From NCBI RefSeq assembly GCF_021028995.1, contig NZ_JAJJZG010000005.1, positions 62,001-126,000 on the forward strand: DNA of 64,000 nt. The letters run 5' to 3'. A model generated the notes under the pieces. That model was not told the origin of the DNA. It ran no database searches and was given only the letters and a program-made list of their open reading frames with translations. Both the position numbers and the translations under genes were made by a program. This DNA is from Halobacterium sp. KA-4. GTDB taxonomy: Archaea; Halobacteriota; Halobacteria; Halobacteriales; Halobacteriaceae. Within the stretch, counting starts at the first letter, position 1. Each line of letters starts with the position of its first letter. Positions 6,748-62,376 of this stretch are shown here, one piece after another.

Positions 6748-7173
6748 ATGAGTTCATCCAAACACACGACAGACCAGGCGCGACAGCGGGACGACGTGGT
6801 GTTCGTCGTCGGTGGGGCCGCCGTCGGGCGCGCCGTCGCCAACCGACTGGCGGCCGACGGCGAGACCGTGACACACGTCGGCCAGTCACCATCGACTGAC
6901 CCACCTCCAGGACAGACTGCCCACGTCGTCGACACGCTAGACGCCCACTCGCTGCAGGGTGCCGGCCTCGCCGACGCGACCGCAGTGCTCGTTCTCGAAC
7001 CCGACGACGCCACTAACCTCCTCGTCGCACAGCTCGCACGCACCCGATTCGGCGTCGAACGAGTGCTCGTCCGAACGAACGACCCCGACAGAGAATCTGC
7101 TTTCGAGCTCGGGGACGTCGAGACTGTCGACGCCGCCACGGTGCTCGCTCGCGCCGTCACCGACCGGTGGTAG
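6748..7173 (+). CDS. stand-alone TrkA-N (RCK) nucleotide-binding domain protein
   Basis: A 141-residue protein with a single Rossmann-like RCK domain (VVFVVGGAAVGRAVANRL at about residue 17, ADATAVLVLEPDD near 85, VLVRTNDPD near 110). It has no RCK-C domain and no membrane segment. RCK domains bind NAD(H) or nucleotides and gate transporters. The glycine pattern is unusual (GGAAVG in place of GxGxxG). Start ATG 6748 follows a region with no coding character. It sits 69 bases before an APC transporter, so regulation of that transporter is a plausible inference. Confidence 0.75.
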   Translation: MSSSKHTTDQARQRDDVVFVVGGAAVGRAVANRLAADGETVTHVGQSPSTDPPPGQTAHVVDTLDAHSLQGAGLADATAVLVLEPDDATNLLVAQLARTRFGVERVLVRTNDPDRESAFELGDVETVDAATVLARAVTDRW

Positions 7174-7242
7174 CGTGCGAGTGAGGACACTCCCTGCCGA
7201 TAGCACAGCGCGACGACCACCGCATCTCACAGTAACTTCCTC

Positions 7243-15807: not shown

Positions 15808-16452
15808 TCACCGTGGCTCGATGCTCACCGACAGGTCGTCGACGTAGTGAGTCGCGTCGGCTTCCCAGATGACTGCCGTCCCGACCGCGAGGTAGAGCGT
15901 GTCCGTGGACAACTCGGGTGTCGTCCACTCGAACTCGTACTCGTGCCAGCCGTCCGCGAGCCACAGCGGCTCCCGCAGGCCACCGTACGGGGTCACCCCG
16001 TGCTCGGACGTGTTGACGCCCGGCTGTGGGAAGTCCTCCTCGACCTCGGGCGGTTCCGGGGCGAGGCGCATCACGGCGTGACGAATCGTGTTGAACGACT
16101 CCGACTCGCTCCAGAACTGTCCCTCGACCTCGATTTCGTACGCCTGTCCCCGTTCGACCGGAACTGGGTGGACGGCCCACGTCACGCCGTCGTCGTAGTC
16201 GCCTTCGTTCCACACCCGTAGCGACTGGTCGCCAGTCGCCGCTTGCGCGTCCGAGACGTCGACTTCCCACTCGAACTCCGCGAGGTCGACCTCCGGGCCG
16301 ATGGCCGCGCCAGTCTCCCAGTCGCCGAGCCCGTCCTCGAAACTCTCGGTGAACTCCGCATCGTCGTCATCGTCGTCGCCGGGCACGACACAGCCAGCGA
16401 GTCCCGCGATTCCGGCAGCCGCACCCGTTCGAAGTACGTCTCGTCGTCGCAT
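15808..16452 (-). CDS. Tat-exported lipoprotein with jelly-roll-like domain
   Basis: A 214-residue predicted lipoprotein. MRRRDVLRTGAAAGIAGLAG followed by Cys is a twin-arginine signal with lipobox, then a short Asp-rich linker. The mature part (FTESFEDGLGDWETGAAIG, GDQSLRVWNEGDYDDG, YVDDLSVSIEP) resembles carbohydrate-binding-module type beta-sandwiches, in which 'sequence of damaged-fold' residues end in a DDLSV strand. Ligand unknown. Start ATG 16452 was chosen because it begins the Tat motif. It lies 69 bases after the Lrp gene's start side and is probably transcribed alone. Confidence 0.75.
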   Translation of the reverse strand: MRRRDVLRTGAAAGIAGLAGCVVPGDDDDDDAEFTESFEDGLGDWETGAAIGPEVDLAEFEWEVDVSDAQAATGDQSLRVWNEGDYDDGVTWAVHPVPVERGQAYEIEVEGQFWSESESFNTIRHAVMRLAPEPPEVEEDFPQPGVNTSEHGVTPYGGLREPLWLADGWHEYEFEWTTPELSTDTLYLAVGTAVIWEADATHYVDDLSVSIEPR

Positions 16453-16497
16453 TACTGCAAGCCACTCCGGCTGGCGACATAACCGCTCTGGCACCCC

Positions 16498-16977
16498 TCA
16501 CTCGCCGTCCCAGTAGTCGACGGCGTCCTCCACGCGGTAGTAGCCGTGATGCGAGCGCTCGCCTCGCCCTCCAGGTGGTGCGCCGACGAAGACGCCGACT
16601 TTCCCCGAGTCCGGATAGACGGTCACGTCGGGTTCGTTCATCGTGGAGACGGCGAGATAGCGTAGTGGTCCCTCCGAGTCGTTGATGACTTTGTGGCCGC
16701 CGGACTCGTCGGCGGGGAGCGCGGCGTAGTCGCCCGCTCGGAGCGGCTGCGTCTCCCCGTCGAGACGGAGCATCCCGGTGCCCGCGAGCACGTACAGCGC
16801 TTCCTCGTTGGCGGTGTGGTAGTGGTACGGCCACGCCGCCTCGCCCGGCGGCAGTTCGTAGAGACTGCAGCCGAGTTGGTCGCTGCACGCTGCTTCGCCC
16901 AGTTGCTTGCGGCGCACGTGCATCTCCTCGTCGGCGACGTCGGTCCAGTCGAGGTCGGCCTCGTTCACGAGGGACAT
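16498..16977 (-). CDS. cupin domain protein
   Basis: A 159-residue single-domain cupin. Cupin motif 1 is YHYHTANEEALYVLAGTG with a His-His-Glu metal triad, and motif 2 is LPADESGGHKVINDSEG with the final His. Residues 115-150 (TVYPDSGKVGVF, GGRGERSHHGYYR) match haloarchaeal cupins annotated as sugar-phosphate or general cupins. The enzymatic role is not determinable. It lies 45 bases before the lipoprotein gene on the same strand. Confidence 0.85.
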   Translation of the reverse strand: MSLVNEADLDWTDVADEEMHVRRKQLGEAACSDQLGCSLYELPPGEAAWPYHYHTANEEALYVLAGTGMLRLDGETQPLRAGDYAALPADESGGHKVINDSEGPLRYLAVSTMNEPDVTVYPDSGKVGVFVGAPPGGRGERSHHGYYRVEDAVDYWDGE

Positions 16978-17100
16978 GGGTCGCGCTACGGCGCGACCTG
17001 AGTTGTTTCTTCGGCCGCATCGAGGCCGCCTTTGGACACTGCGGCTATATATCCCTCATAGTGATACTTAACACGCGAGACGCAGTGAACGTCCAGTCGC

Positions 17101-17535
17101 ATGCCCTCCACGAAGCGACGCACCTTCCTCGTCAGCTTGAGCGCGACGCTCGCTGCCGTCAGCGGCTGTACCAGCCCGACGTCCGAACAGCCCGCGCACA
17201 CAGTCTCCGTGTATCTGGTCGACGAGGACGACCCGCGTGAGGTCACCGTGGCCGTCGAAGCCGAGAACGGCGACACTGTGTTCGATCGAACATACGACCT
17301 TTCCGAGCGCAACGAAGCCGACGAGGACGCGACGTTTCTCGAGTCTACAGCTCCTGAAACCGTCGTCGTGACCGTCGACGGCCGGCGCTTCGAGCGCGAC
17401 TGGCCGGGCTTCGAACAGCCGGAGTTACCCTGTAATGGACAGAACTGGGCGGGAATCGAGGTCTGGGTGTCGAACGAGGACGGGGAGCCGTCCGTTCGCA
17501 TCGAGCCGAACTGCCAGCACGTGACGGTGTCGTAG
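17101..17535 (+). CDS. Tat lipoprotein, small secreted domain
   Basis: A 144-residue protein. KRRTFLVSLSATLAAVSG then Cys is a Tat signal with lipobox; the mature part is an acidic beta-rich domain of about 110 residues (VSVYLVDEDDPREVTVAVE, TVVVTVDGRRFERD). Two Cys (LPCNGQNW and PNCQHV) near the end could form a disulfide outside the cell. Architecture resembles the lipoprotein at 21887-22285, although sequence identity is low. Function unknown. The downstream gene converges within 2 bases of its stop. Confidence 0.7.
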   Translation: MPSTKRRTFLVSLSATLAAVSGCTSPTSEQPAHTVSVYLVDEDDPREVTVAVEAENGDTVFDRTYDLSERNEADEDATFLESTAPETVVVTVDGRRFERDWPGFEQPELPCNGQNWAGIEVWVSNEDGEPSVRIEPNCQHVTVS

Positions 17536-17536
17536 T

Positions 17537-18247
17537 TCACTGACTCTGTGGTTCCGCCGTAATCCACTCCTCGCTACTGGAGAGCAACACGAGCTGGTCG
17601 GTCACGTCCTCCATCGCGTCGACGAGCCGGTCGAACAGGGACGCGAACTCCCGGTACACCATTGGCTGGGGGATGGCTTCGTCGGCAAAGACGTCGGCGA
17701 TGACGGCGTTGCGGACGCCGTCGCACTCGGATTCGGTGGCTCGAATCGTCTCTACGTGCCTGGCTATCGACCCCGTCTCGGTCGAGGAACACAGCAGGCG
17801 GACGAACTCGTGGACGGCGTCGGCGAGCGCGGCCATCGCCGTCGTCGCGTGGTCGACCATCTCTCGGTATCGTCGGAAGCAAGAGACCCGCCGTTCTGGG
17901 GCGATCGTCACGAGGTCTTCGGCGATTTGTTCGGCCGTGTTCGGAATCTCGTCGAGCAGCTGGTAGAGGCGCACGACCTGTTCGGCGTTGAGGTGCACGC
18001 GGGAGTTACGGATGCCGAACTCCCTGACGGTCGTGTTCGTGATGAGCGCGCTGAGTCGTCGGCTCTGTGCGTCGCAGTCGCTTTCGAGGCCCCGAATTTC
18101 CTCGACGAGGTGTCGGGCGGAGTCCCCGGGCTCGTAGTTCTCGACGAGTCGTGACAGCAGGTCGACGCACTCGCTGATGGCGTCGAGATACGCGTCGGTC
18201 TGCTCGACGACCTGCCTGGAGAACTCCGGAGCACCCTTGGATGACAT
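17537..18247 (-). CDS. DUF47/PhoU-like family protein
   Basis: A 236-residue all-helical protein similar to the DUF47 (TIGR00153) family, related to PhoU and often tied to phosphate transport regulation. It shows two repeats of the family pattern, for example LVEEIRGLESDCDAQSRRL and HVETIRATESECDGVRNAV, each with conserved E-x2-C-D acidic metal-binding residues, and helical blocks between them. No phosphate transporter lies next to it here, which is slightly unusual. Promoter sequences on this strand include TCATATCAAC 34-43 bases before the ATG. Confidence 0.8.
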   Translation of the reverse strand: MSSKGAPEFSRQVVEQTDAYLDAISECVDLLSRLVENYEPGDSARHLVEEIRGLESDCDAQSRRLSALITNTTVREFGIRNSRVHLNAEQVVRLYQLLDEIPNTAEQIAEDLVTIAPERRVSCFRRYREMVDHATTAMAALADAVHEFVRLLCSSTETGSIARHVETIRATESECDGVRNAVIADVFADEAIPQPMVYREFASLFDRLVDAMEDVTDQLVLLSSSEEWITAEPQSQ

Positions 18248-18301
18248 CGATTCGAAGTCGGGTCCAGCAGTCGCAAAGAGGTTGATATGAGTGCTCCGTA
18301 C

Positions 18302-18314
18302 CCCACAGTGTGGG
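18302..18314. promoter_or_regulatory. 13-base perfect palindrome between divergent genes
   Basis: CCCACA-G-TGTGGG lies in the 196-base gap between the DUF47 gene (minus) and a membrane protein (plus), upstream of both TATA-like boxes. It could be an operator for one or both. Nothing else visible explains it. Confidence 0.4.
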
Positions 18315-18413
18315 ACTATAGACGTGCTCGTGGCGTCCCTTCATTGATTCTCCTGCTTCGATGGAGTCGACGTCTGCCAATCGACTGGATGGGCCGTTAT
18401 TTCCACGCCAGCC

Positions 18414-18419
18414 TTTATC
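18414..18419 (+). promoter_or_regulatory. TATA-like promoter of the membrane protein gene at 18444
   Basis: CCTTTATCG places TTTATC 25-30 bases before ATG 18444, which selects this start over the GTG nine bases earlier. Confidence 0.5.
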
Positions 18420-18443
18420 GATAGCCTCAGTGTAGTGTTCGGT

Positions 18444-18875
18444 ATGGATTCCCGAGAACGACGTCAAACCTCGACCGGCACTGCAGCACTCGTCGGGACT
18501 GTCGTCGGTCTCGGCGTGGTGTGTCTGTACCTCGGCCTCGGCCTGCTCGTCGCAGGATGGAAAATCAGCGACTTCCTCCTTCGACTTTCGCCGAGTACTG
18601 TCGGGTATTTCGTCGGCATGATTGCTCTCGTCGTCGTCTCCGTCGGCCTCCCCATCGCCGTGTTCCTCCGATTTCAGTTGGTTAGCCCGCTCGTGGTTCT
18701 CGTGCTCGCAGCACTCGCGTGGCTCGTCCTCGGCGCAGTACAGGGCTTGCTCTCACTCGAGACGATTTTCGGCCTCGCCCTCTACGCAGCGTACCTTTCG
18801 CCGATTGCCCTCGTTCTCTACGGCGTTCTCGGTGGAGGCGAGTATCTGTTCCGAACCGAGACGAGCCGCCCGTAG
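18444..18875 (+). CDS. four-helix membrane protein of unknown function
   Basis: A 143-residue hydrophobic protein with about four transmembrane segments (ALVGTVVGLGVVCLYLGLGL, FVGMIALVVVSVGLPIAVF, PLVVLVLAALAWLVLGAV, ALYAAYLSPIALVLYGVLG) and a short basic N terminus. I do not recognise a family. The TATA box fits ATG 18444. It is followed by a 124-base gap with no recognisable feature and then a convergent MscS gene. Confidence 0.65.
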   Translation: MDSRERRQTSTGTAALVGTVVGLGVVCLYLGLGLLVAGWKISDFLLRLSPSTVGYFVGMIALVVVSVGLPIAVFLRFQLVSPLVVLVLAALAWLVLGAVQGLLSLETIFGLALYAAYLSPIALVLYGVLGGGEYLFRTETSRP

Positions 18876-18999
18876 AACTCGTTCTACGTACGCTCTGTCC
18901 TCGTCGACTTGCGCTAGTCGCTCTGATCGTACAGCATCGAGTGAGTCCGTGGAACGAACAGCCGATACGCCGTGTCCGTATTTCGCGCCTTCGAGATTG

Positions 19000-20124
19000 T
19001 CAGTCAGACTGCTCCTGGCTGTCGGATTCCGGGGAGCTATCGAGGATACGGAATCCGTCATCTTCGTGGCGGCCGGTGAGTTCGCGCTGGGGGAACGGGA
19101 TCTTCACGTCCTCCTGATTGAACGCGGTTTTGACGGCGTAGATGACCGCCTGAGCGGCGCGCCACTTCCGCTGGGGGGTTGGATTATCGATCCAGACGCG
19201 AATTTCGAGGACGACCGCGGAATCACCGAAACGAACCGGCAGTACCTGTGGGGCGGGATGGCTCATTATTTCGTCGAGGTCGCTGATTGCCTCACGTGCG
19301 ATGGCTTCGGCGCGCTCAGGATCCACGTCGTAATCGACTCCGACCTCGATGGTGTGGCGGAGTTTTCCTTCGTCGCTGCGGTTGATGATTGTGCGGTTGC
19401 TGACCGCTTCGTTCGGGAGGACGACGTGTTCGCCGTCGAGATTCCGGAGTCGCACGTGGTTGATCGAAATCTCGGTGATGAACCCTTCGTGGTCGCCGAT
19501 GCGAACCCAATCCCCGATTTCGAAGGGGCGTGAGAGCATGAGCACGAAGCCGGCGAGAATCGAGCCGAGCGTGCTCTGGAACGCCAATCCGAGGATGATG
19601 CCGAGGACGCCAGCGCCCAACAGGAGGTCGCTAATCTGGATGCCCCAGAGGGAGAGCGTAGCGACGCCGGCTGCGATGTAGATGACGACCTGACTGATGT
19701 AGAAGAAAATCCGGCGTTGGTGCTCGCTGGTCGCACGACCGTTCGAGCGGTTATTGCCGAGGAGGATGCGCTTGACGACTTGCGTAAACGTGTGGGCGGC
19801 CACGAAGAGAAAGACCGTAATGAGGATGCGAAGTGCCGTATTCAAGCCGAACTCCAGCACACCCGTCATCGAGACTAACGCGCCGGTCGCTCCCCATCGC
19901 TGAACCAGGACGACCGCGACGCCACCGGCGAGGACCAACAGCAGGAGCGAACGGGCGAGTTTGGCGTTCACCGCTCGGAAGCGTGCTTCCAGCAGCGTTC
20001 CGACGTACCAGATGCCGACACCGGCAAGCATCGCAGCAGCGATTACTGCCAGCGTTTCGTCAACCGGGATATCGGACTGTAGCGGTGTCAGCAACACCGG
20101 CTCTGTACCCGTGTACTCGGTCAC
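19000..20124 (-). CDS. mscS: small-conductance mechanosensitive ion channel, MscS family
   Basis: A 374-residue channel that opens on membrane tension and releases osmolytes upon hypo-osmotic shock. Five hydrophobic segments occupy residues 20-210; the pore-lining helix is LLLGAGVLGIILGLAFQSTLGSILAG, followed by the beta domain start SRPFEIGDWVRIGDHEG and the conserved LPNEAVSN. The C-terminal alpha-beta domain runs to about residue 340, with a polar tail. Full length for the family. For a halophile such channels guard against sudden dilution. Confidence 0.93.
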   Translation of the reverse strand: MTEYTGTEPVLLTPLQSDIPVDETLAVIAAAMLAGVGIWYVGTLLEARFRAVNAKLARSLLLLVLAGGVAVVLVQRWGATGALVSMTGVLEFGLNTALRILITVFLFVAAHTFTQVVKRILLGNNRSNGRATSEHQRRIFFYISQVVIYIAAGVATLSLWGIQISDLLLGAGVLGIILGLAFQSTLGSILAGFVLMLSRPFEIGDWVRIGDHEGFITEISINHVRLRNLDGEHVVLPNEAVSNRTIINRSDEGKLRHTIEVGVDYDVDPERAEAIAREAISDLDEIMSHPAPQVLPVRFGDSAVVLEIRVWIDNPTPQRKWRAAQAVIYAVKTAFNQEDVKIPFPQRELTGRHEDDGFRILDSSPESDSQEQSD

Positions 20125-20188
20125 GAGCGTACCTACGGAGTGTACGTCGTTAAACTACCGACAGTCGGACAGTCTGCACCGAACCCGG

Positions 20189-20385
20189 TCATCGCACGAA
20201 GCGGTGGTCGTGCTCCTGATTCAGAAGTTCTGTCGCAACGTCTCTCCAGCCAGGTTCGTCGGTCAAACTGGCGACGAAGTTCGTATCGACCAGAACTTTC
20301 ATCGGCGCTCGCGCACGTCCCGAACTGCTTCGATGGAGTCGATATCGACGCCTGCTAGCTGATAAGTTGGCGTGCGAGTCGAGCA
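20189..20385 (-). pseudogene. vapBC-like toxin-antitoxin relic
   Basis: ATG 20302 opens a 37-residue frame beginning MKVLVDTNFVASLTDE, the start of a PIN-domain toxin with its first catalytic Asp, but it stops after FVR, losing about 90 residues and the other three acidic residues. The frame just before it ends SIEAVRDVRERR with its stop overlapping the ATG as ATGA, like the tail of a coupled antitoxin; only about 28 antitoxin-like residues remain. Both ends are missing, so this is decayed. It lies between mscS and the insertion sequence. Confidence 0.55.
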
Positions 20386-20404
20386 AAATTCGACTATTAA
20401 GTGG

Positions 20405-20599
20405 TCAACTTCGTCTCCAGTCTTTCGGGAGACGCCGCCAGAGTGGCAGAAATATGGCCCAAAAGGACACGAAGCTGACGACAATTGCGATGATAAGTAA
20501 ATCATTACCTCTTATGCGTAGGACATCGAAACAAAAGCGGAGAACGAGGAAAACTCCGAATCCCCATATGGCAAAGGCTCCCCCTTGCCTCAGGGTCAT
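20405..20599 (-). CDS. small two-helix membrane protein, possible
   Basis: A 64-residue frame with two hydrophobic stretches (AIWGFGVFLVLRFCFDVLR and LLIIAIVVSFVSFWAIFLPLW) and a basic tail. It resembles small orphan membrane proteins of haloarchaea but I recognise no family. It starts 8 bases from the left end of the insertion sequence, so the original 5' region may have been displaced. It could be spurious. Confidence 0.35.
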   Translation of the reverse strand: MTLRQGGAFAIWGFGVFLVLRFCFDVLRIRGNDLLIIAIVVSFVSFWAIFLPLWRRLPKDWRRS

Positions 20600-20606
20600 C
20601 CACGTC

Positions 20607-20623
20607 GGTAGTGTTCAGATAAG
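20607..20623 (+). repeat. left terminal inverted repeat of the IS6-type element
   Basis: GGTAGTGTTCAGATAAG pairs with 21346-21362 on the other strand with 15 of 17 positions identical; the transposase stop codon lies inside it. Confidence 0.75.
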
Positions 20624-21309
20624 CTGATTCCATGCGAAGCTGAACGATCTGAGCCAGTCGTCGGCGGTTTCTGCTTCGGCGTTGCTGAAACAGTTTGAGA
20701 AACAGAGTGTCCGTCGTTTTATCTCTCGAAAAACACGTTCGACAGCCTTCCGATTTCCATGTTTCTCGTATCTGAAATCGTAGCCGTGGCGGTGACACGC
20801 ATCTTGCAACGAGTGCGAGCCATCGACGAGAAACACAGCGTTAACGAGACGCAATGCGTCTCGTTCGCACACCAGAAACGCAATGCGTTTCTGGGGACGT
20901 CTTCGACGTCGTGTTTCTCGGAGAGTTCAGCGAGAAACGAATGAGCGAGAACCTTCGTAGTCGTCGTTTCAAGCTTTGTATGGAGTAATTCGTTTGTTTC
21001 AGGATCGACAGCGGCGTACAGCCAGTACTGCTCGTCGTTGAGTTGGATCACAGTCTCGTCGACCGCGACGTGATCCGGAGACCGACCAGAGTCAGGCTGT
21101 AGATCGGCCTTGTGAACCCAATTATGAACGGTGGACCGAGCACGCTCGACACCAAATATCTCAAGAATAGAGACAGTATTTGAAAGCGATAGTCCAGCAA
21201 GATGCAGCTGAATACTGAGCTTCATCAGCAGCTGCGGTGTCGCTTCTCGCTCCACAAAACCTAACCCGATCTGGTCGATACAACCGTTGAGGCTAGCGTT
21301 CTCCGCCAT
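20615..21309 (-). pseudogene. IS6 family transposase, frameshifted
   Basis: The first part (from ATG 21309) reads an HTH-like region (LAGLSLSNTVSILEIFGVERAR, STVHNWVHK), the first catalytic Asp in HVAVDETVIQL and the second in YAAVDPETNE. After EKHDVED the frame is lost. The correct C-terminal part continues in another frame: AVFLVDGSHSLQDACHRHG and the catalytic Glu region KAVERVFREIKRRT, ending SFAWNQLI. The break coincides with an extra segment of about 59 bases holding two palindromes; 59 is not a multiple of three. Removing it would restore a continuous transposase of about 210 residues. Confidence 0.85.
20843..20894. repeat. pair of 23-base palindromes with the same core inside the transposase
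   Basis: Palindrome one (20843-20865) has arm AACGAGACGCA around a central A; palindrome two (20872-20894) has arm CCAGAAACGCA around a central A. Both are perfect, separated by six bases, and share the core ACGCAATGCGT. Together with short flanks they make the extra 59 bases that disrupt the transposase frame. Confidence 0.8.
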
Positions 21310-21345
21310 GGACACGCAGAAAACGCTACGTCTCACCTTTCAATC

Positions 21346-21362
21346 CTTATCTGAACACCGCC
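21346..21362 (-). repeat. right terminal inverted repeat of the IS6-type element
   Basis: Reads GGCGGTGTTCAGATAAG on the minus strand, matching the left end at 20607-20623 except at two positions. Confidence 0.75.
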
Positions 21363-21382
21363 ATTCGGCCATTCTACCGTCA

Positions 21383-21799
21383 ATGAACGTGTCGAAGACA
21401 AATATCGTGAAATACTGCTTCGGTCAAGAGACCAATAGAACTGCGATAGCAACCCTCCTCTCAGTAGCAGTATTCTCAGCAGTTTACATTTCGTCACTAT
21501 ATAACACAGATATTGTCCCGCTCCTCGTAAACACTACGCGAGGCGGCGTTGTCGTGTTGCTCCTACTGGCCGCTGCATACTACTATCACGATAATCGAGG
21601 GGTTCTGGTCGCCTTCCTCATCGTCTTCGCTCCCATCTACGCAGTTTTCATTCGACTCGTTGAACTTGGGAATATTGCACCCAGCCCCCTCAGGGAAGCA
21701 GTCGTCGAAGCCGTACCGTTAACCCTGCTGTTCGCCGTTCCAATCACTATTCTCTCTATCGGCCTCGCACTCGTCTACGAAAGATTCGCCACGAACTAA
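21383..21799 (+). CDS. membrane protein of unknown function
   Basis: A 138-residue protein with about four hydrophobic segments (IATLLSVAVFSAVYISSLY, GGVVVLLLLAAAYYY, VLVAFLIVFAPIYAVFI, VPLTLLFAVPITILSIGLAL). Start ATG 21383 is 20 bases beyond the end of the insertion sequence, so its native promoter was probably separated or replaced by the element. Base composition is more A/T-rich than the rest of the window, hinting at foreign origin. No family recognised. Confidence 0.55.
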   Translation: MNVSKTNIVKYCFGQETNRTAIATLLSVAVFSAVYISSLYNTDIVPLLVNTTRGGVVVLLLLAAAYYYHDNRGVLVAFLIVFAPIYAVFIRLVELGNIAPSPLREAVVEAVPLTLLFAVPITILSIGLALVYERFATN

Positions 21800-21886
21800 C
21801 CTGGCCACGCAACAGCAACAATCTCCGTCAAGCGTCACCAGAAGGCCGGGAAGAATAGCGCGATATTCGAGTTACCGCTGAGCGAA

Positions 21887-22285
21887 TTACCCAATTGAGA
21901 GACTGAACTCGATCGCGTTTTCTTCGATTCGCACACTGAGATACCCGCTCTGGGAGTCAGGAGTAGCGCCCCATTCGTATTGGGCTTGCTGTCCATCCTC
22001 GGTTTCGACGATAATTCGTTTCGTCCCGCTTTCCTCGAAGAGGCTCTCGTACTCCTGTGTTTTACTCGGGGAAATTGTCGGGTCGTCGGTGAACACTTGC
22101 TGTTTGGGTTCCGAGTCGATATGAAAGACCTCGATGTGAATGGTCACAGGGTTCGGACGGCTATTATAGATGCTCACCTGTGTCCCATCACCCTTCAAGC
22201 AGCCAGCCAGTCCAAGCGTCGCAGCCGAGAAAACGGCTGACGTAAACACCCGGCGAGAGATTGATTGCTCCCGGCCAGAACTCAT
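21887..22285 (-). CDS. Tat lipoprotein, small beta-rich domain
   Basis: A 132-residue protein beginning with a Tat signal (SRRVFTSAVFSAATLGLAG then Cys). The mature domain (TQVSIYNSRPNPVTIHIEVF, KRIIVETEDGQQAQYEWG, GYLSVRIEENAIEFSLSIG) is beta-rich and typical of small haloarchaeal surface lipoproteins. No enzyme motif. It ends 88 bases from a convergent membrane protein gene. Confidence 0.7.
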   Translation of the reverse strand: MSSGREQSISRRVFTSAVFSAATLGLAGCLKGDGTQVSIYNSRPNPVTIHIEVFHIDSEPKQQVFTDDPTISPSKTQEYESLFEESGTKRIIVETEDGQQAQYEWGATPDSQSGYLSVRIEENAIEFSLSIG

Positions 22286-22337
22286 AGCAAATCGTTCACA
22301 CGGCTCCGGTAAGTGCCTTGGCTGTACTTAGCGAGAT

Positions 22338-22472
22338 ATGGTCATCTATACTGCATTCGGGGTGCTCGAAACGGTAACCGTGGCCCGTGTAGCAGTCTAC
22401 TATCGAATCTTCCGGCTACTCATCGAGTCAGGAACAATCGAGAGGGGTATACCGCGACTAATACAGCGTTAG
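22338..22472 (+). CDS. possible 44-residue orphan protein
   Basis: In the 212-base gap between the lipoprotein and chorismate mutase genes, an ATG at 22338 opens a 44-residue frame (MVIYTAFGVLETV, YYRIFRLLIESG). There is no visible TATA box or relative. The gap otherwise shows nothing I can name. It is reported only because it is the sole open frame there. Confidence 0.15.
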   Translation: MVIYTAFGVLETVTVARVAVYYRIFRLLIESGTIERGIPRLIQR

Positions 22473-22497
22473 AGTGCCTGTAATGGCTGTCCTCTGA

Positions 22498-22764
22498 CTA
22501 CCGATTGCTTCTTTGCTCCACTTTGTTCAACTCGATGAGCAGTCGGAAGATGGCTTTCACGAGGTTCGGGTCGACGCCGAACGCTTCGGCGTTCCGGCCG
22601 GCGCGGTCCATCACCGCTTGCTCTTGGCTCTCGTCGGTGGTCGCCATGCCGCGTTCGTCTTTGACCTCCGCGATGGTTTCGGCGACGTACGTGCGTCGCG
22701 CGATGAGATCGACGATTTCGCGGTCGATTGATTCGATTTCTTCGCGCAGTTCCTCTAGACTCAT
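22498..22764 (-). CDS. chorismate mutase, AroQ type
   Basis: An 88-residue all-helical enzyme converting chorismate to prephenate, the branch point to Phe and Tyr. Motifs: LREEIESIDREIVDLIARRTYVAETI (first helix with catalytic Arg and Lys at VKDERG) and the C-terminal IFRLLIELNKVEQR. Start ATG 22764 was chosen because it overlaps the aroK stop as ATGA; an upstream ATG at 22827 would add an acidic 21-residue extension overlapping aroK more deeply. Its product feeds the tyrA enzyme encoded at 3979. Confidence 0.9.
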   Translation of the reverse strand: MSLEELREEIESIDREIVDLIARRTYVAETIAEVKDERGMATTDESQEQAVMDRAGRNAEAFGVDPNLVKAIFRLLIELNKVEQRSNR

Positions 22765-23615
22765 ATCGTCCGGGCCCCGTCCAACTGCGTCGTCGTCAGC
22801 CGGACTGTCCCCGGGTTCTCGTCCCATAGTGGTTTCACCTCCGTGAGTGCGTCGTGGTCGCCGACGGCGACGTAGCTCGGGCCGGTGCCCGAGAGGGACG
22901 CCCCGTCGGCGTTCGGGAGGGCGTCCACGATTGGCTCGGTCGGGTGGCCGAGCGCCGCCGCGAACGCCAGCCCGTTAATTGTCATCGCGGTGCCGTACTC
23001 GCCGTCGGCGGCGAGGTCCGCGACGTGTTCGGCCATCGGCGCGATGCGCTGGCAGCGCTCGACGTCCGCGTCCGCGGAGAAGGACTGCTCGGGCGGCGTC
23101 CACACGAGCGCCGCCCACTCGACTTCCTCGCGGAACAGCAGGTCGTCCTCGCGGTTGTCTGTCATCGTGAGCCCGCCGAGCATGCTCGCCGAGGCGTCGT
23201 CGAACGCGCCTGTCACGGTGACACCGACGTCGCGAGCGGCTTCGACGCCGAGGCGTGCCGCCTTCTCGCGGGAGACGCTTCCGACCTCGCCGAGCGCGTC
23301 CAGCGTCGCGAGCACGGCCGCGTTCGCGGCCGCGCTTGAACTCTTCAGGCCGGACGCCAGCGGCACCTCGCTGTCCGTGTGGACGGTGCCGCCCTCGCCG
23401 TGCCCGTACTGGTCGGTCATCAGCGACACGCAGCGTTCCACGAGCGCGGTGTCGGCGTCCGGGTGGTCGGCGATGCTGCCGGTGACGCCGTCGGCGGCCG
23501 CGTCCAGCGACACCTCGGCTGTCACGTCGAAGTCGAGCGCGAACGCCGACCCGATGCCCGTCGCGAGCGCGTTCAACACGGTGCCCGCGGCTGGCGCTGC
23601 TGCACGGCCGTCCAT
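22761..23615 (-). CDS. aroK: archaeal shikimate kinase (GHMP kinase type)
   Basis: A 284-residue GHMP-superfamily enzyme phosphorylating shikimate, the archaeal non-homologous replacement of bacterial AroK. Motif 1 is GRAAAPAAGTVLNALATG, motif 2 is the ATP-binding EVPLASGLKSSSAAANAA at about residue 90, and motif 3 is GASLSGTGPSYVAV near residue 250. Start ATG 23615 was preferred to 23630: GTATTTAC lies 21-28 bases upstream, matching a leaderless start, and family members begin MDGRA. It overlaps chorismate mutase by 4 bases: a chorismate-branch operon. Confidence 0.93.
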   Translation of the reverse strand: MDGRAAAPAAGTVLNALATGIGSAFALDFDVTAEVSLDAAADGVTGSIADHPDADTALVERCVSLMTDQYGHGEGGTVHTDSEVPLASGLKSSSAAANAAVLATLDALGEVGSVSREKAARLGVEAARDVGVTVTGAFDDASASMLGGLTMTDNREDDLLFREEVEWAALVWTPPEQSFSADADVERCQRIAPMAEHVADLAADGEYGTAMTINGLAFAAALGHPTEPIVDALPNADGASLSGTGPSYVAVGDHDALTEVKPLWDENPGTVRLTTTQLDGARTI

Positions 23616-23635
23616 GTGTTGTCCTGCCACGGCCC

Positions 23636-23643
23636 GTATTTAC
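23636..23643 (-). promoter_or_regulatory. TATA-like promoter of the aroK-chorismate mutase operon
   Basis: Minus-strand GTAAATAC lies 21-28 bases before ATG 23615 and supports that start over the ATG 15 bases further out. Confidence 0.6.
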
Positions 23644-23733
23644 GACTGGCGTTTCGGGCAAGGAGAGCGTGGCCGAGCAACGCGAGGCCACGCAAACGGC
23701 GGGCTTTTCCTCTCCCACCCGCAATCCACGGAC

Positions 23734-24171
23734 ATGAGCGCCCGCAACGACATCGCGCCGAGCACCCTCGGCGTCGACCTCGAAGAGGAGGGCGTCTACG
23801 TCGAGTACACGGACGGCCGCCGCACGTTCTACAACGGCGTCCCGGAGAAAGTCCACGGGACAGTGCGGTGCCGGCCGGGCAAGGACGTCCACGTCCTCGT
23901 CACGGACCCGACGGAGACGGAGGGCGTCCTCGTCTACGTGAACGACCTGAAGACGCACGACGAGATTCTCGAATCGACGGGCGTCGGCCGCGTCCTGCTC
24001 GACCCCGGCGAGAAAGAGGAACTGTTCCCGGGCGTGACCGTGCGCGCGGACGGCTACGCGACGGAAGTCGAAGCCGACCCCGAAGAGGCTCGGGGTCGTG
24101 TGTTCGTCTTCGAGGAGGACGAGCTCGGCGAGCGCTCGTTCGAGCTGTTCGCAGCAGAGTCAGAGGAGTGA
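23734..24171 (+). CDS. haloarchaeal conserved protein, DUF5796-like
   Basis: A 145-residue acidic cytosolic protein (DIAPSTLGVDLEEEGVYVEY, DGRRTFYNGVPEKV, EGVLVYVNDLKTHDEILE) widely conserved in haloarchaea; I believe it is the DUF5796 family, from memory. Beta-strand rich, with no Cys and no signal. Divergent from aroK with 118 bases between starts. Function unknown. The ATG at 23734 starts the conserved region; the longer open frame before it is antisense to aroK. Confidence 0.75.
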   Translation: MSARNDIAPSTLGVDLEEEGVYVEYTDGRRTFYNGVPEKVHGTVRCRPGKDVHVLVTDPTETEGVLVYVNDLKTHDEILESTGVGRVLLDPGEKEELFPGVTVRADGYATEVEADPEEARGRVFVFEEDELGERSFELFAAESEE

Positions 24172-61917: not shown

Positions 61918-62376
61918 TTAGTTCCGGAGGTGTGCGGTGATGTCCTCGCGGATAAGCTCCCCACAGTACTCACACCGCAGGCCGTCCTCCAGCACCGCGA
62001 ACGTCGGCTCAACGGGTTCGCCCGCGTTCGTGATGCATTCGCGGTTCGGACAGACGAGCACGCCGCCGACCTCCTCGGGTCGTTCGACGCGGCGCTTGTC
62101 CACGACGTCGTAGTCGCGGATGATGTTGATGGTTGCCTCAGGCGCGATGAGTGACAGCACTTCGGCCTCGCTGTCGCTGAGTTCGCGGCCTTCGACCTTC
62201 ACGACGTCTTTGCGACCGAGCCTATCGGAGGGGACGTTCATGCCGAGGCTCATCGGCGTGCCTTCGGTGCCATCGATGCCCAGCAGGCTGAGCACGTGCA
62301 GCGCCTCCCCGGCGGAGACGTGGTCGATGACGGTGCCGTTCTGGATTTTCGAGACGCGGAGTTCAGTGTCAGTCAT
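61918..62376 (-). CDS. pyrI: aspartate carbamoyltransferase regulatory subunit
   Basis: A 152-residue regulatory subunit of aspartate transcarbamoylase, sensing CTP/ATP. Allosteric domain ([26 protein letters not shown]) and a zinc domain with four Cys: CPNREC...CEYCG. All four ligands are present. Overlaps the pyrB stop by 8 bases: pyrB-pyrI operon on the minus strand. Confidence 0.94.

Follow-up and report, generated by a model that had tools for sequence, protein, structure and literature searches.

A 59-bp double-hairpin module interrupts the transposase gene of an IS6-type insertion sequence (IS) in the archaeon Halobacterium sp. KA-4, and it is almost certainly an inserted copy of a module family spread throughout the haloarchaea. 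The copy lies in a stretch of 64,000 nt, hereafter the window (NZ_JAJJZG010000005.1, positions 62,001 to 126,000), on contig C51; the draft genome comprises 3.34 Mb in 55 contigs. The IS, which occupies window positions 20611-21358 on the minus strand, has 13-bp inverted ends (GTGTTCAGATAAG / CTTATCTGAACAC) and copies elsewhere, and measures 748 bp, or 689 bp without the insert. Within it, the module (GTTAACGAG...TGGGGAC, 20840-20898, plus strand) consists of two perfect 23-nt palindromes with no assigned strand, hairpin 1 (AACGAGACGCAATGCGTCTCGTT, 20843-20865) and hairpin 2 (CCAGAAACGCAATGCGTTTCTGG, 20872-20894), that share the core ACGCAATGCGT and flank the spacer CGCACA (20866-20871, plus strand), conserved in an alignment of 32 copies. 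Both palindromes, their six-base gap and their common core had been recognised in the initial annotation, whose coordinates of 20843-20894 hold for the palindromes but not for the insert, which spans about 20840-20898. As single-stranded DNA, the insert has a predicted fold with a z of -7.0.

The edges of the insert were defined by uninterrupted copies of the same IS. A sister IS in the same genome (G000:C1:85990-86678) is 689 bp long, lacks exactly 59 bp with respect to the 748-bp window copy and is identical to it at 678 of 689 positions outside the insert (98.4%); it carries an open frame of 221 aa reading EKHDVEDAVFLVNG. Four further genomes have full-length IS6 copies of 687-689 bp, and these intact relatives are likewise without the 59 bp. 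In the window, the 5′ part of the transposase (20899-21336, minus strand) reads as far as EKHDVED, and the open reading frame (ORF) at 20719-21336 departs from the transposase frame at the insert; the 3′ part (AVFLVDG..., 20615-20839, minus strand; ORF 20615-20872) was placed by alignment with locus L188 and lies out of frame past the insert. The sister IS thus confirms the earlier proposal that 59 bases break the frame and that their excision restores it. The transposase itself matches the Pfam profile DDE_Tnp_IS240 weakly, under the curated cut-off. The trinucleotide CGT occurs at each junction (20839-20841 and 20898-20900), so either edge could be shifted by as much as 3 nt. A CG is found at the left junction (20839-20840, plus strand) and a second one at the right junction (20898-20899). 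The ACG at both edges had been taken as a possible 3-base target duplication, a reading that comparison across the family did not support: copies have only CG in common, and ACG (CGT on the plus strand) is partly a coincidence. The CG could reflect a fixed target or else a duplication of 2 bp.

Perfect palindromes of 11 pairs are expected by chance about 0.03 times in 64 kb, and adjacent pairs of them about 1e-6 times; this expectation, together with the structure of the sequence, ruled out chance or tandem duplication. An assembly artefact might be suspected in a draft of 55 contigs, yet hundreds of homologous copies exist in independent genomes, finished ones included, and we regard the whole explanation by chance palindromes or misassembly as refuted.

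The KA-4 genome holds ten more strong matches to a 76-nt query and at least 15 matches to a covariance model derived from an alignment of 32 of them across genomes, which recognises the window module with an E of 3.4e-21 (C51:82840-82898, that is, window 20840-20898). When 84,980 species genomes were scanned for the pattern of hairpin 1 plus spacer, 86 loci were returned, all from records with haloarchaeal titles save one metagenome-assembled genome titled only Euryarchaeota. The covariance model located the module in 267 of the 293 genomes of the order (91%) and in 79 of its 81 genera; zero-match genomes occur in several haloarchaeal families. The search scored only 19 candidates per genome, which makes every copy number a minimum and means that an absence may be spurious, as for genome G008. 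Outside the haloarchaeal order, in a phylum-wide sample of about 240 archaeal genomes, only three gave matches to the model, and these were weak. Copies are also present in plasmids of well-known strains: in pNRC200 of Halobacterium salinarum NRC-1 (322402-322461; L294, 1501-1560), where no feature is annotated, and in pHME132 of Haloferax mediterranei (7148-7206; L295, 1501-1559), where an unannotated copy precedes an IS6 transposase gene by 20 bp. Plasmid PL47 contained no module-type units, no viral contig matched any of three exact module patterns, and phage records gave no match either. Rfam returned only a sub-threshold match to a bacterial sRNA, AaHKsRNA22 (E 0.05). We found no description of the family in the openly accessible literature, which does not prove its absence, and no open paper treating haloarchaea together with REPINs. 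The family is thus order-wide and apparently undescribed.

The family consensus reads GTTRACGAGACGC-NNN-GCGTCTCGT-TCGCACA-CCAGAACGC-NNN-GCGTTCTGG-GGAC and spans 54-59 bp, mostly 57 bp. Stems are of 9-11 bp, loops mainly of 3 nt, and the tail is TGTGCG; short 5′ tags in opposite orientation mark the edges, with GTTR at one edge and, on the complementary strand, GTCC at the opposite edge, and the sequences CGTTAACGAGACGC and CGTCCCCAGAACGC resemble each other. Exact copies of hairpin 1 in five whole genomes stood in doublets in 17 of 17 cases, while a reversed control pattern gave 0, and therefore the doublet is the unit. In the arms, 96.5% of the cells were paired and ten pairs had been altered on both sides, with compensating changes from CGC/GCG to ATC/GAT in hairpin 2 and from GAGAC/GTCTC to GAATC/GATTC in hairpin 1. 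The covariation score of the arms was 0.215 versus 0.091 after shuffling (0 of 500 shuffles scored as high) and 0.02-0.05 with slid partners, in a set where some copies had been picked for an intact hairpin 1, which restricts inference on that arm. Haloarchaea thus carry the palindrome pair repeatedly, its spacer unchanged and its arms varying in a compensated way, which establishes a family of elements, as had been proposed from the window copy, and not a random duplication. Further double-hairpin units with similar GT..AC edges and other spacers (CAGCCCA, TGATGA or GCCA) were seen at L003, L004, L007, L093, L106, L127, L133, L146, L150, L157, L186, L205 and L220; they are apparently more families of the same kind.

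Hairpins preserved by compensating changes, the presence in 91% of genomes and the location of some copies directly behind stop codons (L279, L280) are features that host-functional structured elements would also display, kept by selection for termination or RNA processing, with little present mobility and with the IS6 copy as an occasional capture. Nevertheless, structure would be kept equally well if it were needed for movement, mobile elements dominate the context of the copies, several families include zero-match genomes, and insertion inside transposase genes is of no use to the host; we consider this explanation improbable.

To describe the target, 44 contexts with dissimilar flanks were retained from 161 copies. 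C precedes the module in all 44 and G follows it in 43, usually with GG ahead of the C, which gives the consensus CGGC^G. Sites that can pair across the junction into a stem of 6 bp or more were enriched (18% vs 4.6%). IS605-type elements are often hit in their near-terminal palindrome CCCGCCGTTYACGGC^GGGCGTG, of which filled and empty forms exist, four of the empty ones in the KA-4 genome. Many copies sit in the non-coding ends of IS200/IS605 elements, and 43 of 86 have tnpA or tnpB no more than 600 nt away, compared with 16% of random positions; in the same test, 3 alone were inside those genes. Modules also form head-to-tail arrays of up to five units, as at L290, where five units with AC|GT joints and differing arms occupy one palindrome. 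L008 and L009 share long flanks, so whole elements were copied with the module inside, and part of the copy number is therefore hitch-hiking. The idea that an IS605 end palindrome keeps its own fold with a module inserted in it was set aside, given that the predicted fold lent it no support. In three genomes of one genus (G127, G118 and G029; L255-L268 and L270-L273), the module forms part of a longer intergenic repeat that is itself present in multiple copies (ggactcaaaggggcag...GTTCACGAGAGC...).

The window target has counterparts of its own. A decayed double hairpin occupies the same position in a related IS6-type transposase remnant of G008 (G008:C24; L045, L194), and in G025:C134 (L040) a double hairpin stands immediately ahead of the same GCCGTGTTTCTCG stretch in another such remnant. 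The IS6 site was therefore probably struck more than once, or else the insertion dates back further in some of the lineage.

The clustering of copies in IS605-type elements, and a size and hairpins similar to those of the 52-bp terminal-only PATEs of Haloquadratum (PMC3119063), could alternatively mean that each module is a decayed transposon, the fused left and right ends of an IS200/IS605 element whose core was deleted. Against this, the IS605-type ends seen in this analysis carry different palindromes, the module is an extra insert inside them with empty counterparts, and every exact hairpin 1 copy in the five genomes belongs to a constant-spacer doublet. Moreover, the described 52-bp PATEs arise by deletion between repeats resembling one palindrome, which would leave one palindrome and not two. 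This origin is consequently quite unlikely.

Some modules lie in frame within coding sequence. At L095, the unit is part of a 436-aa TnpB with Pfam matches above the cut-offs and adds about 19 residues ahead of the RuvC motif GIDLGVN. The same position and arrangement are seen in L110, where the frame is truncated, and a 54-bp unit occupies the same TnpB position in L057. In the TnpA genes L213 and L217, the in-frame insert is a double hairpin of a different type. Across these five loci about 17-19 residues are added, and the TnpB inserts always lie directly before GIDLGVN.

With respect to the origin of the window copy, we propose that a very small non-autonomous module, made of two hairpins flanking a fixed spacer, entered a CGGC^G-like site in the IS6 transposase gene and thereby caused the frameshift. 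Two routes have probably spread such modules: site-preferring insertion of their own, which would account for the many unrelated contexts and the head-to-tail arrays, and passive copying inside IS200/IS605 and PATE elements that harbour them at their ends. We infer that the module most likely moves in a folded, single-stranded form, which a Y1 transposase of the IS200/IS605 type would recognise in trans. Mobilisation by this enzyme is the mechanism we favour, although with somewhat less than even confidence; taken jointly with the family and the insertion, and weighted toward the anatomy, the proposal is fairly probable.

To relate module load to candidate enzymes, we compared 23 module-rich genomes (at least 14 covariance matches) with 19 genomes without matches. 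A Y1 transposase was present in 19 of the 23 but in 5 of the 19 (P = 0.0004), and the median number of tnpB genes was 16 versus 2 (P = 5e-8), while IS6 elements, counted to control for overall IS abundance, were hardly more numerous (2 versus 1, P = 0.03). Such an association is in keeping with a single strand being moved in trans by a Y1 transposase. Several points weigh against the proposal. The association is confounded because modules hitch-hike in IS200/IS605 elements, as at L008/L009; the window copy could be traced to no direct donor; and a search that was not exhaustive found no autonomous element framed by both hairpins. Mobility itself is read from empty and filled sites and from independent contexts, with transposition never observed, and it is to this extent that the early description of the insert as a hairpin-type, REP-like mobile unit is supported. 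In addition, the module-rich genomes G017 and G268, as well as the less complete G100 and G299, have no detectable Y1 gene.

Such genomes would suit instead an integron-like process, in which a site-specific recombinase acts on folded single-stranded hairpins, recombination takes place beside the edge GTT and arrays are cassette-like. The fixed CG junction, the GTT at the module edge and the arrays with AC|GTT joints point in the same direction. The integron core is GTTRRRY, yet module edges agree with it only at GTT; modules are without cargo, and no integron integrase (TIGR02249) scored above the family cut-off in the 23 module-rich genomes. We therefore hold this process to be rather unlikely. 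A broader version of the proposal, which we advance only tentatively, would see a haloarchaeal superfamily of site-preferring double-hairpin modules, comprising several families with differing spacers and the same GT..AC ends and served by a dedicated single-strand recombinase; its members would parasitise IS200/IS605 elements, build arrays in their ends and persist as in-frame peptides of TnpB and TnpA.

Among known systems, the module is REPIN-like in architecture and SMR-A-like in targeting, and membership in each fails on at least one tested feature. Bacterial REPINs and their RAYT (PMC3116915) are comparable in that the element is non-autonomous, has two hairpins and inverted 5′ tags, uses the doublet as its unit and forms clusters. 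However, the GTAG tag is missing from the module, whose edges are GTTR/GTCC, the module is archaeal, and REPINs reside mainly in host intergenic space whereas modules are often inside IS200/IS605 ends. Modules precede some tnpA genes (L198, L203), but no RAYT-like arrangement was found: among the loci read, which was not an exhaustive survey, neither a single-copy RAYT nor any other Y1 gene had hairpins on both sides. SMR-A of Haloquadratum walsbyi (HqIRS42/43/55; PMC3119063) is likewise transposase-free, haloarchaeal and enigmatic in its mobilisation, and inserts, as the module does according to its filled and empty palindromes, in near-terminal palindromes of IS605-type or PATE elements. It differs, by its published description, in its length of about 110 bp, its prominent inverted ends and its restriction to that species, whereas the module has 54-59 bp, two internal hairpins, edges that are only similar and an order-wide distribution. 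Two adjoining modules in opposite orientation, as at L203, would measure about 109 bp, near the size of SMR-A, which is only a lead.

PATEs (PMC3119063) are also short, palindromic, haloarchaeal, linked to IS605 and without transposase, but their palindromes resemble IS605 ends, whereas the module is a separate insert that interrupts such ends and has known empty counterparts. CGTC-tagged REPs of bacteria (PMC3733652) share CGTC beside the hairpin foot, at one edge only; with an 8-9-bp stem, a 4-5-nt loop and a CCA tail, they differ from the archaeal module in stem, loop and tail, and the other module edge is CGTT. Rickettsia palindromic elements (PMC10969869) are palindromic inserts that can be in frame in protein genes, as modules are in TnpB (L095) and TnpA, while the window copy shifts the frame. 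A classical MITE shares terminal inverted repeats with a transposon and duplicates its target; module edges are similar to each other, duplication amounts at most to CG, and no parent transposon of the module was found. Mitochondrial double-hairpin elements share the name and the two-hairpin shape but belong to another compartment and lineage.

Window positions 16001-24000 have a G+C of 0.605 compared with 0.66-0.68 in the rest of the window, as expected for a patch of mobile DNA. A short ORF at 20189-20386, starting with MKVLVDTNFVASL, resembles the beginning of a truncated PIN-type toxin and has no Pfam match.

The modules had gone without annotation in the plasmid records that we checked, including those of known model strains. 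They occupy the regulatory ends of IS200/IS605 elements. TnpB, the RNA-guided nuclease of those elements, draws wide interest, and the modules are able to alter both TnpA and TnpB proteins. The question of mobility left by the SMRs of Haloquadratum is now directly testable.
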